Assembly (NCBI RefSeq): GCF_000337215.1
Contig: NZ_AOHZ01000111.1
Coordinates: forward strand, 1 to 64,000
Direction: 5' to 3'
Length of the DNA stretch: 64,000 nucleotides
Source of the DNA: Natronolimnohabitans innermongolicus JCM 12255
Lineage (GTDB): Archaea > Halobacteriota > Halobacteria > Halobacteriales > Natrialbaceae
The notes under the pieces were generated by a model. That model had not been told where the DNA came from. It worked only from the letters and a program-made list of their open reading frames with translations, and ran no database searches. Of this stretch, positions 51,674 to 56,000 are shown piece by piece; the first letter of the stretch is position 1, and each line of letters begins with the position of its first letter. Made by a program: the position numbers and the translations under genes.

Positions 51674-52159
51674 TCACTCGTCTCGAGCGTCGAGGATTTC
51701 CTCGATCAAGCCGTCGGTATCAGTCGCCGCGAGCCGAAAGACGGCGTCGTAGAACTCGCGGCCGGTCAGATCGCGAACGTCGTGGTCCGTCCGGAGCTGT
51801 GCGTCGACCAACGCTCGCGCGTCGTCGACGCGCTCGAGGGTCTCCGGGCGAACGTAGACCGTCTTCTTCTCGGTCGCGTCGAACGGGAACGCGGTCGGAT
51901 CGTCGGGGTCGATGTCGGCGTCGCCATCGGTGTCGGTGTCTGCGACGTCGGCCGTGTCATCGGCGGTCGCCGCGGACGCGTCCGTCGACGCCGTCTCGGT
52001 TTCCGAATCGGTGCTCGAACGGGCGGAATCTGCGTCAGTGTCGGCGTCACTGCCGGCCGAGTCTGACCGATACTCGACCGCCGTCGACTCGTCGGCGTCG
52101 CTCGACGTGTCGTCTTCGACGGCGTCGCTCAACCCCGCGAACCGGTTGTCCTCAGGCAT
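51674..52159 (-). CDS. acidic protein with putative ribbon-helix-helix domain
   Basis: The 161-residue product has an extremely acidic, Ser/Thr/Asp/Ala-rich N-terminal tail of about 95 residues and a compact C-terminal domain: KKTVYVRPETLERVDDARALV (strand, then helix), DVRDLTGREFYDAVFRLAATD (second helix) and an acidic tail. Strand-helix-helix order and the KTVYV strand fit a ribbon-helix-helix DNA binder. It is translationally coupled to parA (its ATG overlaps parA's TGA). In other partition systems this position holds the centromere-binding protein, so I propose that role. An N-terminal tail binding ParA is possible. Confidence 0.6.
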   Translation of the reverse strand: MPEDNRFAGLSDAVEDDTSSDADESTAVEYRSDSAGSDADTDADSARSSTDSETETASTDASAATADDTADVADTDTDGDADIDPDDPTAFPFDATEKKTVYVRPETLERVDDARALVDAQLRTDHDVRDLTGREFYDAVFRLAATDTDGLIEEILDARDE

Positions 52160-52982
52160 CGGCGACACCCCCGCGTTCGACGACGGCGGCCAGTTCGTCC
52201 AGTCGGTCGAGCATATCGCTTTCGGGGTCGTACTCGGCCAGCGGCACGCCCTCGCGCCACGCGCGCTTGAACGCGATCCGTTCGCGCAGGCCGGGACCGG
52301 GAGAGTCCGGATCGTCGAAGTGAGCCGAGCGTGCGAACTCGGGGAGGTACTCGCCGAACTGCGACTCCTCCAGATCGCCGATGATCCGCTTTTCCTCGTT
52401 GTCGCCGGCCAGCGAGTTCGGAACGATCGCGAGGATATCGAGGTCGATCTCCTTGCGGATCGGGCCGATCTGCTGGGTGTACATCCGCTCGAAGCCGCTG
52501 ACGCTGGGCTCGCTCATCCGCAGCGGAACGATGACGTTCTGCGTCGAGATGAGCGAGGCGTCGGCGAGCGGACCCAGGTTCGGGGGCGAGTCGACGACGA
52601 CGTAGTCGTACGCGTCGCCGAGGACGGGGTCGACGATCTCGTTTCTGATCCAGAGTTCGCCGAAGGTCGCGCTGCGGATGCTGTTCTCGACGCTATCGAG
52701 ATCCTCGTGGGCTGGCAAGACGTCGAACGCCTCGGTCGAACGGATCACGTCGCCGAGGGTCGTCTCGTTGCCGTCCTCGAGAACGTCCCCGAGGTGAACG
52801 TCGCTCGAGTAGGCCTCGGCGAGGCCGACGCCCTCGGTGGCGTTGCCCTGTTGGTCCAGGTCGACCAGCAGAACGTCGTTACCGCGGTTAGCGAGGCGTT
52901 CGGCGAGGTTGATCGCGATGGTCGTTTTGCCGACGCCGCCTTTCTGCAAGGCGACGCTGACGGCGCGTGGGGTCGTTGTCAT
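52152..52982 (-). CDS. parA: ParA/MinD-family partition ATPase
   Basis: The 276-residue protein starts MTTTPRAVSVALQKGGVGKTT, a deviant Walker A KGGVGKTT with signature Lys 14, followed by LLVDLDQQGNATEGVGL (Walker A' near residue 40) and YVVVDSPPNLGPLADASL (Walker B). It lacks a MinD amphipathic C-terminal membrane helix, which favours a ParA role on DNA. No N-terminal HTH domain is present (ParA type Ib or Soj-like). The start at 52982 is used because the open frame before it runs into the repeat array. Confidence 0.88.
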   Translation of the reverse strand: MTTTPRAVSVALQKGGVGKTTIAINLAERLANRGNDVLLVDLDQQGNATEGVGLAEAYSSDVHLGDVLEDGNETTLGDVIRSTEAFDVLPAHEDLDSVENSIRSATFGELWIRNEIVDPVLGDAYDYVVVDSPPNLGPLADASLISTQNVIVPLRMSEPSVSGFERMYTQQIGPIRKEIDLDILAIVPNSLAGDNEEKRIIGDLEESQFGEYLPEFARSAHFDDPDSPGPGLRERIAFKRAWREGVPLAEYDPESDMLDRLDELAAVVERGGVADA

Positions 52983-53049
52983 TCGTGGGTACACCTCCGT
53001 CGTCTCCGATCGCCGCGGCGTCGTTCGGTCCGGCGTCTCGAGTCGATCG

Positions 53050-53935
53050 GCGAAGTGGACACCGTGTACACAGTGTGAACAGTACGAACCGTTCGAGATG
53101 TGAATCCGGTCGCAGTGCCGTCGCTTCGACTGATCTGGAGCGGACACCTGCCTCGAGAGGCCCTAGAATACCGTTCGAACCGTTTCCGCGGTTCTGACGG
53201 TTCACACCTGGTGGACGGTGGAGACAGTCCACACATTGTAGACAGTGTAAACGCGTCACGCATTGCGGACAGCGTATGCCGTGTGAACGGTACGGGACAG
53301 CGGATCGATCGCTGGTTCAGGAACTGTCCGAACAGTTCGAACAGTCGGAACCGTGGACACGGTGTGGACATCGTGTAAGGTTTGGTTGACGCCGACGCGT
53401 ATCGGATGCGACGCGTGATACGTCTACCATCCGACCAGCGTGACTTAACAGTAGCGGAAACAGTTACACATTGCACACGGTGTAGACAGTGTGTCCGGAA
53501 ATTTCGGTAGCACGGTGAACGGTACTTTCCGGGTAGTGCTTTCAGCGGGAACCACAGGCCCTGAGGGGCGAGATACCTAGAGGGTGAATCGAAGACCCCT
53601 AGATGAAAAGTCCAAACGGTCCACACTGTGGAAATCAGTACCCTATCTACAATGTGTGGACTTTTCAGAGCGTTCACACGGTTTACCCCGCACGGTAACA
53701 GTGAGTTGGCGGAGAACTGATCGAAGCGTTCCGTCCGAACGGCGGCCAAAACTGTTTGAACAGTCCACACTGTGTAGACGGTTCGTGAGTTACACGACGG
53801 CCGGTCGATACCGAGTGAAACGGATACCGGCGCGCTGGACGGGAGTGTCGAGAGCCGGACACAGTGAGAGACGTATTTCAGTGGAGACAGTTTACACTGT
53901 TCAGACGGTGTCAAATGTGTAGACGGCTCGAGGCG
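53050..53935. repeat. array of nine-base palindromes between parA and herA
   Basis: The gap consists largely of nonamers of pattern NNACNGTNN, many of them perfect palindromes (GAACAGTTC, ACACAGTGT). Units sit end to end: 53059-53112 (six units), 53168-53374 (23 units in strict register, for example AGACAGTCC, AGACAGTGT, GAACGGTAC, GAACAGTTC), then 53466-53492, 53614-53631, 53749-53784 and 53885-53929. Copies with one or two changes fill the spaces. The nine-base period makes a false reading frame of repeating Thr-Val, but codons and composition do not behave like a gene. It is probably a multi-site protein-binding region. Confidence 0.75.
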
Positions 53936-54047
53936 ACGCGAGTGAGTGATCCACGTCGGCCGGCGGCGTCGAGGCCAATATTCAAGGTGCCGTGTTCGAA
54001 GTGTACCTGTATATGAACACGTCGCGCGCGCTCGAGGTGGGTCGTCG

Positions 54048-56000
54048 GTGAGCGACCAGCGGGAGATTATGGTCGGCGAGACGGCTGCCGACTCGGAGCT
54101 GTGGCTCCCCGTCGTCGAACTGCTGACCGGCCGCGGCTTCGTAACGGGGAAGTCAGGGTCGGGGAAGTCGAACACCGCGTCCGTTATCGCGGAGGAGTTA
54201 CTCGAGGCGGGCTTTCCCCTCCTGATCGTCGACACGGACGGGGAGTACTACGGGCTCAAAGAGGAGTACGAGATGCTCCACGCCGGCGCCGACGAGGAGT
54301 GTGACATCCAGATCGGACCGGAGCACGCCGAGCAGATGGCGACGCTGGCCCTGGAGGAGAACGTGCCGATCATTCTGGACGTTTCGGGCTACCTGGACGA
54401 GGACGTGGCGGACGAACTCCTGCGGGAGACGGCCAGGCAGCTGTTCGTCAAAGAGAAGAAACTGAAAAAGCCGTTCTTGCTCGTCGTCGAGGAGGTTCAC
54501 GAGTACATTCCCGAGGGCGGCGGCGTCGGCGAGACGGGCAACCTGCTGATCAAGATCAGCAAGCGCGGGCGCAAACACGGCCTCGGCATCCTCGGGATCA
54601 GCCAGCGCCCCGCCGACGTCAAAAAGGACTTCATCACGCAGGCGAACTGGCTCGTCTGGCACCGACTGACCTGGGACAACGACACCAACGTCGTTGGACG
54701 GATCATCGACACCGAGTACTCGGAGCTCGTCTCCGACCTCGACGACGGCCAGGCGTTCGTCCAGACCGACTGGAACGAAGTCGACGTCCGAAAGGTCCAG
54801 TTCCGACGCAAACGGACGTTCGACGCCGGGGCGACCCCCGGCCTCGACGACTTCGAACGACCCGAACTCAAGTCGGTCTCGGACGCCCTCGTCGGCGACC
54901 TCCAGAAGATCTCCGAGCGGAAGGACCGCGAGGAAAACCGCATCGTCGAACTCGAGAACGAACTCGAGAAGAAAGAAACACGCATCGAGACCCTGGAAGA
55001 CGAACTCGAGTCCGCGCGGGATATCTCCTCGGCGGCCAAGCAGATGGCCGACGCGCTGACGAGACCCGAGACGGTCCAGACGCAACTCGGCGCGGGGGGA
55101 GCGGACGACGGCGAGGAACTGCGCCGGCTCCACGACGAAATCGTCGACCTCGAGGACGAACGCGACGAACTCCGGGCGCAACTGGACGAGCGAGACGAGC
55201 GGATCGAGAGCCTGGAAAGCGATCTCGAGTCGCGGGCGGAGACGATCGAGCGTCTGCGAGCGGAGAACGAGCGGTTGCGTGTGCGCGTTACTGATACCTC
55301 GACTTCGGTGGACGCGCCGGCGACGAACGCCGACGGCGGCGTCGCCGATACCGTCTCCGGTGGCGCTTCCGACGCCGACGACGAGATCGTTCACGCCGGC
55401 GGCGACGAGATCGAGTTCGGCTTTACGTCGATCAGCGAGGAACTCGAAAACGTCAGGGCGCGAGCGGACGCGGAACGCGGCGAAAACGAGTCGGCGGTCG
55501 GATCGGCGATGGCCGGCAACGGAATCGGGAAAGCCGACATCGACGCCGACGTCGACGCCAACACCGACACCGAACGCGACGAAGACGGACGAAGCGAACG
55601 GACCGCTGGGAGCACCGCAGCCGGCACGGCGCGGTCGTCGACGACGCAGTCGTCGCAGCCGAACGGCGACGAATCGATGCCGGAGGCGGAGCGGTTCACC
55701 GGCGACTGGATCGACGAGCGACTCGAGCGCGCCGCCGAGCAGTCACGCTGCACGGCGAAGACGGGACGGCGGGCGCTCGCCGTACTCGAGAGAGACGGCC
55801 CGCTCGGAACCGTGGCCGTCGCCGAGGCCGTCGGTCGATCGACGGTCGCGGTCCAGAGTTTGCTCTCGGAGCTTCGGACCGAGGGACTGCTCGATCGGCC
55901 GAGCGAGCGAACGTACGCGCTCGACGCCGACGTTCGGTCTCGAGTGTCGGACGAAAAAACGGAAAGAGAATCGGAGACGGGATCGACGAGCGCCGACTGA
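54048..56000 (+). CDS. HerA-like ATPase with coiled coil and winged helix
   Basis: The 650-residue product starts at the GTG at 54048 (GAGGTG nine bases before). It has Walker A GKSGSGKSNT (residues 34-43), DTDGEYYGL, Walker B LLVVEEVHEYIPEG near residue 147 and a LGISQRPADV motif, typical of the HerA/DUF87 branch of FtsK-HerA translocases. After about residue 290 there is a coiled coil (VELENELEKKETRIETLEDEL...LRAQLDERDERIESLESDLESRAETIERLRAENERLRV), a long acidic linker and a C-terminal winged helix (GRRALAVLERDGPLGTVAVAEAVGRSTVAVQSLLSEL). A translocase acting on DNA and recruited through its winged helix is plausible. No NurA nuclease gene is beside it. Confidence 0.85.
   Translation: MSDQREIMVGETAADSELWLPVVELLTGRGFVTGKSGSGKSNTASVIAEELLEAGFPLLIVDTDGEYYGLKEEYEMLHAGADEECDIQIGPEHAEQMATLALEENVPIILDVSGYLDEDVADELLRETARQLFVKEKKLKKPFLLVVEEVHEYIPEGGGVGETGNLLIKISKRGRKHGLGILGISQRPADVKKDFITQANWLVWHRLTWDNDTNVVGRIIDTEYSELVSDLDDGQAFVQTDWNEVDVRKVQFRRKRTFDAGATPGLDDFERPELKSVSDALVGDLQKISERKDREENRIVELENELEKKETRIETLEDELESARDISSAAKQMADALTRPETVQTQLGAGGADDGEELRRLHDEIVDLEDERDELRAQLDERDERIESLESDLESRAETIERLRAENERLRVRVTDTSTSVDAPATNADGGVADTVSGGASDADDEIVHAGGDEIEFGFTSISEELENVRARADAERGENESAVGSAMAGNGIGKADIDADVDANTDTERDEDGRSERTAGSTAAGTARSSTTQSSQPNGDESMPEAERFTGDWIDERLERAAEQSRCTAKTGRRALAVLERDGPLGTVAVAEAVGRSTVAVQSLLSELRTEGLLDRPSERTYALDADVRSRVSDEKTERESETGSTSAD

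Follow-up and report, generated by a model that had tools for sequence, protein, structure and literature searches.

An array of nine-base palindromes upstream of a haloarchaeal parA-B operon as a likely plasmid centromere

Genes and repeat units between parA and a herA-like gene

The window, by which we refer to the whole stretch of 64,000 nucleotides analysed here, is part of a contig of Natronolimnohabitans innermongolicus JCM 12255 and harbors a parA gene on the minus strand (positions 52152 to 52982), which encodes a Walker ATPase of 276 residues (Pfam AAA_31, 3.1e-36, and CbiA). The protein carries the sequence QKGGVGKTT near its N-terminus, with the Walker motif at about residue 13, and possesses no N-terminal DNA-binding extension; its closest solved chains are the Soj/ParA segregation ATPases (E 7e-21). 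The second gene, B (51674 to 52168, minus strand), overlaps parA by 17 bp and encodes a predicted centromere-binding protein of 164 residues. Together, parA and B form a two-gene operon that is followed by a convergent gene for a DEAD-box helicase. The overlap amounts to 17-23 bp in most orthologues of the window family and to 4 bp in the chromosomal paralogues and in the paralogue on contig C84 of the same genome. This second parA-B system (L065/L002) encodes a B protein with the strand QQKPFYAR and displays a weaker period-9/18 signal (z of 2.9/3.8 over 700 bp) with units resembling CCTATTG/CAATAGG.

According to the alignment, the N-terminus of B is a conserved peptide, MPxDNRFAGL, which an acidic linker of low complexity connects to a C-terminal domain starting with KKTVYVR. 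AF2 modeling of the C-terminal domain with 42 sequences yielded an extended strand and three helices at a mean pLDDT of 91.8; the model of the full-length protein, based on 14 sequences, was poor (pLDDT 62.8). No family match for B was obtained among Pfam, NCBIfam and PDB profiles, and the monomer model of the C-terminal domain produced no meaningful match, including none to RHH folds, with Foldseek against the PDB and viral libraries or with VIA-align. Similarly, comparing the B profile to omega, CopG and Arc by hhalign gave no meaningful alignment, each of these being represented by a single sequence, of which that of omega was checked against the PDB, and a search in phages did not identify a homologue of the domain. 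Since no profile or fold library recognises B, its apparent resemblance to ribbon-helix-helix (RHH) proteins lies in the strand pattern alone, which includes K-T-V-x-V-R as in omega.

A gap of 1,065 bp (52983-54047) separates the start of parA at 52982 from a gene on the plus strand (54048 to 56000) that encodes a divergent HerA-like ATPase (Pfam DUF87, 1.4e-11), and it is this gap that holds the array. Viterbi decoding with a position weight matrix trained on relatives alone resolved about 48 nine-base units of the consensus RNACNGTNY in nine in-register runs, which extend from about 53050 to 53929; 29 of these units contain an exact ACNGT. Run 1 (53050-53103), which is also apparent from the list of ACNGT sites, comprises about four to six units, four strong ones being located at 53059-53094, and precedes the parA start by about 76 bp. 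The 14 contiguous units of run 2 (53168-53293), likewise evident from autocorrelation, are followed after a gap of 27 bp by the seven units of run 3 (53321-53383) in the same register. Run 4 (53466-53492, three units) adjoins a conserved non-repeat element, ACTTAACAGTAGCGGAA (53443-53459, plus strand), which was recognized in the alignment of relatives and resides within the array region. Runs 5 and 6 occupy 53605-53684, with three units at 53605-53631 and four at 53649-53684. The four units of run 7 (53749-53784) were additionally detected as exact matches to a triple-unit pattern, and runs 8 and 9 (53859-53929) provide two units at 53859-53876 and five at 53885-53929, the herA-like gene following about 120 bp downstream. 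Six runs in the window have at least four units.

The element ACTTAACAGTAGCGGAA is present near letter-for-letter in most relatives at a similar distance from parA, about 340-520 bp upstream, and is unique in that a single match is found in the whole genome when up to two mismatches are allowed. It may represent a promoter, a site for a host factor or a point of nucleation for the array. Units of the window motif also occur at other positions. On contig C22 (4082-4113; L066, 1501-1532), four units form a mini-array that is flanked by genes for a beta-propeller-like protein and an acyl-CoA dehydrogenase and has no parA within the surrounding 3 kb, and a five-unit in-register cluster away from parA on plasmid pHTUR04 (L191, 33469-33513; at about 108468 of the plasmid) is a possible secondary site.

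Period nine and its conservation with parA-B

A sequence-only reading of this region had described nine-base palindromes at 53059-53374 in an unbroken register. The array as such was confirmed. Across 53001-53960, the self-match at lag 9 was 0.364 (z=7.5 versus 500 dinucleotide shuffles), accompanied by harmonics at lags 18 (z=6.5), 27 (z=2.8) and 36, and for 53168-53374 alone the z-scores at lags 9, 18 and 27 were 6.7, 6.3 and 5.9, respectively. As a signal at multiples of three is inherent in coding DNA, we added a control that cancels this periodicity by comparing lags 9, 18, 27 and 36 with other multiples of three; the array region stood out from the remainder of the 64 kb with z=12, and the signal occurs nowhere else in the window. 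Among the 35 ACNGT sites within 53059-53920, 16 pairs occur at a spacing of 9, 11 at 18 and 7 at 27, compared with none or one at most of the other spacings that are not multiples of nine. The relatives-only matrix averaged +3.6 bits per unit when applied in the register originally proposed, versus -6 to -14 bits in the other eight. Tandem Repeats Finder listed nothing at the array because the units are too diverged. This degeneracy, together with the fact that short palindromes are common, would be in line with an effect of chance or of base composition; however, such an origin is rejected by the shuffles, by the other registers, by the other 63 kb and by over 80 other loci. The excess at lag 9 relative to the shuffled sequences already refutes it, and the probability left to it is negligible.

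With regard to details, the earlier description required some revision. Among the 23 units that had been read in one register from 53168, 19 score positive and 12 have an exact ACNGT, but three (53294-53320) are clearly not sites, so that the block consists of 14 and six units around a three-unit interruption rather than being unbroken; the phase is nevertheless kept across these 27 bp. Six more units had been proposed from 53059; four of them proved strong, another is marginal and the remaining one does not qualify as a site, and the one-base phase offset of this block was correctly recognized. The array is, moreover, larger than had been assumed, as the runs continue to about 53929. The different phases of the runs also bear on the question of whether the period, nine being a multiple of three, might stem from a tripeptide repeat in a coding region, since an open reading frame of 418 codons (52979-54235, minus strand) is open across the array. 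As the runs sit at positions 6, 7, 8, 3, 4 and 5 modulo 9, a coding frame is not kept; in addition, the motif is palindromic and pHTUR04 has no annotated gene at its array, which renders a coding origin highly improbable.

In a set of 125 Natrialbaceae genomes, 26 close orthologues of B were identified, most of them on contigs of about 100-250 kb that match named plasmids, among them pHTUR04 of Haloterrigena turkmenica and plasmids of Natronorubrum and Halostagnicola. On pHTUR04, two orc1/cdc6 genes are present and a single ParA is annotated. As the contig of the window is an incomplete fragment of 73.7 kb, its assignment to a haloarchaeal large plasmid is inferred from these relatives. A period-9 array is located upstream of parA in the window and in all 26 orthologues (z of 5.1-13), and models that were fitted independently, genus by genus, recovered RNACNGTNY. 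While parA shares 80-89% DNA identity with its orthologues along its length, the array aligns in short patches only; spacing and motif outlast the turnover of the sequence itself, as is characteristic of repeated protein sites under selection. Across the class, homologues of B were detected in 201 of 391 haloarchaeal genomes. Among 80 loci examined, parA could be recognised within the retrieved stretch in 67, and a lag-9 z of at least 3 was reached by 61 of these parA-B loci when the best of three upstream lengths was scored, the shuffle z-scores of related loci not being independent tests; the remaining six had a weak array or none. Thus, period nine, which had been considered unusual, is the rule in this haloarchaeal parA-B family. 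The laboratory species Haloferax mediterranei harbors two B homologues, on pHME505 and on a 132-kb plasmid.

A herA gene resides beside most arrays, but none was found next to the array at two loci (L050 and L054), both of which are among those with the strongest arrays, and on Haloferax plasmids arrays are kept next to different neighbor genes. Therefore, the array belongs to parA-B, and HerA was rejected as a required part of the system. The same loci are relevant to the idea that the array chiefly serves as a transcriptional operator of parA-B and herA, read by B or another regulator, without any role in partition. Many RHH partition proteins double as repressors (PMC5016525), and the outer runs, about 76 bp from parA and 120 bp from herA, are suitably positioned. 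However, about 48 sites across nearly 900 bp far exceed what an operator would need, and the array persists both with other neighbors on the Haloferax plasmids and in full strength at L050 and L054. We therefore regard an operator without partition function as unlikely; run 1 in particular is nonetheless placed to act as an operator as well.

Dependence of the array motif on the type of B

The loci fall into two motif classes. ACNGT-type units accompany B proteins with the strand [TS]-x-YVR, and CTANNNTAG-type units, which are carried by two lineages only, accompany those with the strand P-x-Y[AV]R. In a two-fold cross-validation, for which each class was split in two so that models trained on one part could be tested on the other, the motif of the own B class scored higher in 94 of 94 loci, a count which is inflated by relatedness and corresponds to at least two independent switches in specificity rather than 94. 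Two loci, L173 and L178, gave no clear signal under any model. Their B strand reads SPIYAR, their ParA forms a divergent branch and their period-9 units are approximately ATAGAA; with scores that stay around or below zero whichever model is applied, they are best treated as representing a third motif.

Eight genomes hold one system of each class and keep two distinct arrays, which excludes genome composition as the source of the motif. In the ParA tree, the P-strand label requires at least three changes. Two loci in genomes G340 and G406 (L185 and L187) are natural recombinants, in which a ParA of the window type (about 70% identity, compared to 47% with the best P-class ParA) is encoded beside a B of the other class (about 69% identity to P-class B). 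At both loci, the array obtains +26 to +30 nats under the P-class motif versus about -5 under that of the window class and hence goes with B and not with ParA. The array motif thus depends on the type of B, and not on ParA, the neighbor gene or the genome background. Short of an experiment, this is the strongest evidence that B would be the reader of the array.

The dependence on B also bears on a possible role of the repeats as iterons of a replication origin, bound by an initiator such as Orc1/Cdc6 or Rep. Origins typically carry repeat arrays, and orc1/cdc6 genes are close to the parA-B loci of Haloferax; yet, the motif tracks B and not an initiator, the two orc1/cdc6 genes of pHTUR04 are about 90-105 kb away from the array according to the record coordinates, and tblastn with four Orc proteins detected no Orc in the window. 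An iteron function is thus very unlikely. The sequence-only reading had seen palindromic, dimer-sized sites without spacers and had named the omega and ParR arrays as the nearest cases, an interpretation that is supported in part. The gene context with parA and a partner gene, the conservation of the array in every orthologue and the link between B type and motif all favor an array of protein sites such as those found at centromeres. We consider it very likely that the array is the parS site, or centromere, by which a large haloarchaeal plasmid is partitioned through its ParA-B system; B dimers would occupy successive 9-bp sites.

Relatives of parA-B also reside on chromosome-sized contigs (L193-L207), with strong period-9 arrays in L194, L197, L202 and L206 and weak or no arrays in the others. 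An orc1/cdc6 gene lies within 9 kb at only four of the 15 loci on long contigs, and several of the 15 are without a clear array, for which reasons the idea of a chromosome centromere was set aside. As two of the orc genes in their vicinity share about 78% identity with orcs of plasmids, integrated plasmids are likely among these loci, which remain candidates for chromosome segregation or for integrated plasmids.

A putative partition complex and its relation to known systems

Several traits of the locus correspond to those of type Ib ParABS systems, namely a Walker ParA without N-terminal DNA-binding domain, a small downstream partner gene in the same operon and a centromere of short repeats upstream. 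With respect to the RHH partner typical of this type, B displays the predicted strand and three helices, and the profile and fold searches described above returned no match. The delta-omega system of pSM19035 is similar in its small Walker ParA, its small partner with a flexible N-terminus and its contiguous short repeats, and the omega strand DKTVRVRAD (PDB 2bnw) resembles KKTVYVRPE of B. In contrast, the repeats of the delta-omega parS measure 7 bp, whereas the unit is a 9-bp palindrome in the archaeal system, and B, with a longer acidic linker and first helix, has no detectable homology to omega. The type Ib ParB of pCXC100, a bacterial system, is an RHH partner whose centromere consists of direct repeats only (PMC5016525); the similarity to the archaeal locus would extend to the partner if B is indeed RHH-like. 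SegAB of the Sulfolobales combines an archaeal ParA orthologue with a site-specific RHH partner and sites upstream of the cassette. The SegB sites, however, are individual palindromes of 13 bp, TCTAGASTCTAGA, which are scattered over the chromosome (PMC12284271), as opposed to the contiguous 9-bp RNACNGTNY array, and the locus is therefore not assigned to SegAB. Nor does the two-gene operon correspond to the tricistronic AspA-ParB-ParA cassette of pNOB8 with its AspA and two-domain ParB. The centromeres of ParMRC systems, with repeats of 10-11 bp for ParR, would be comparable with regard to tandem RHH sites and helical assembly of the partner, but the NTPase of our locus is a Walker ParA, which sets it apart from type II (ParMRC, actin-like ParM) and type III (TubZRC, tubulin-like) systems. 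Tandem unspaced palindromes of 8 bp, AGACGTCT, form the met boxes, which are read by an RHH dimer of MetJ, a transcriptional repressor that has no ParA; the half-site AGAC is also present in the window array, with a unit of 9 instead of 8 bp.

By analogy to type Ib systems, it might be hypothesized that each nine-base palindrome is the site for one dimer of B, encoded immediately after parA, and that the dimers load cooperatively side by side along contiguous runs to form a partition complex. In the case of pSM19035, ParB assembles as a left-handed spiral along the 7-bp repeats, and four or more of these must be contiguous for ParA to be activated (PMC9499535). In a similar way, the loaded B dimers would probably wind around the DNA in a shallow left-handed spiral, and a wrapped filament on the array is plausible by this comparison. 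At about 34.3 degrees per bp, 9 bp correspond to about 309 degrees and thus to an advance of about -51 degrees from site to site, giving about seven sites or 63 bp per left-handed turn; the predicted spiral would be shallower than that of omega with about -120 degrees, which is a matter of arithmetic and not evidence. Such a complex would present many flexible N-terminal peptides of B to ParA. Flexible arms that act on ParA are general among such partners (PMC5393062), and the conserved N-terminal peptide of B fits this role. Nucleoid-bound ParA-ATP might then capture the complex of B and array, clustered B would trigger ATP hydrolysis by ParA, and this cycle would move the sister plasmids apart. 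In addition, the runs closest to parA and herA probably allow B to repress its own operon.

Haloarchaea are polyploid and maintain several large replicons, and how their DNA is handed over to the daughter cells is largely unknown. A 2024 review describes SegAB of Sulfolobus, with no haloarchaeal mechanism named in the passages considered, and a 2025 review on Haloferax counts segregation among the open questions. We regard the centromere array of the haloarchaeal ParA-B locus, along with its testable specificity code, as real and functionally coherent; a prior description is possible, preprints being outside the literature searched. It might tentatively be speculated, with less confidence than doubt, that a class-wide haloarchaeal segregation module exists, based on a previously unrecognised family of centromere-binding proteins which all read unspaced 9-bp arrays, with a few strand residues setting the specificity; such a module would act on large plasmids and, in part of the lineages, also on the main chromosome. 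The system offers a testable centromere, a probable reader and a two-class specificity code, for which the natural recombinant constitutes an internal control. It also provides a signature by which centromeres may be recognized in other haloarchaeal replicons, and it predicts which plasmids would be incompatible with each other and which would not.
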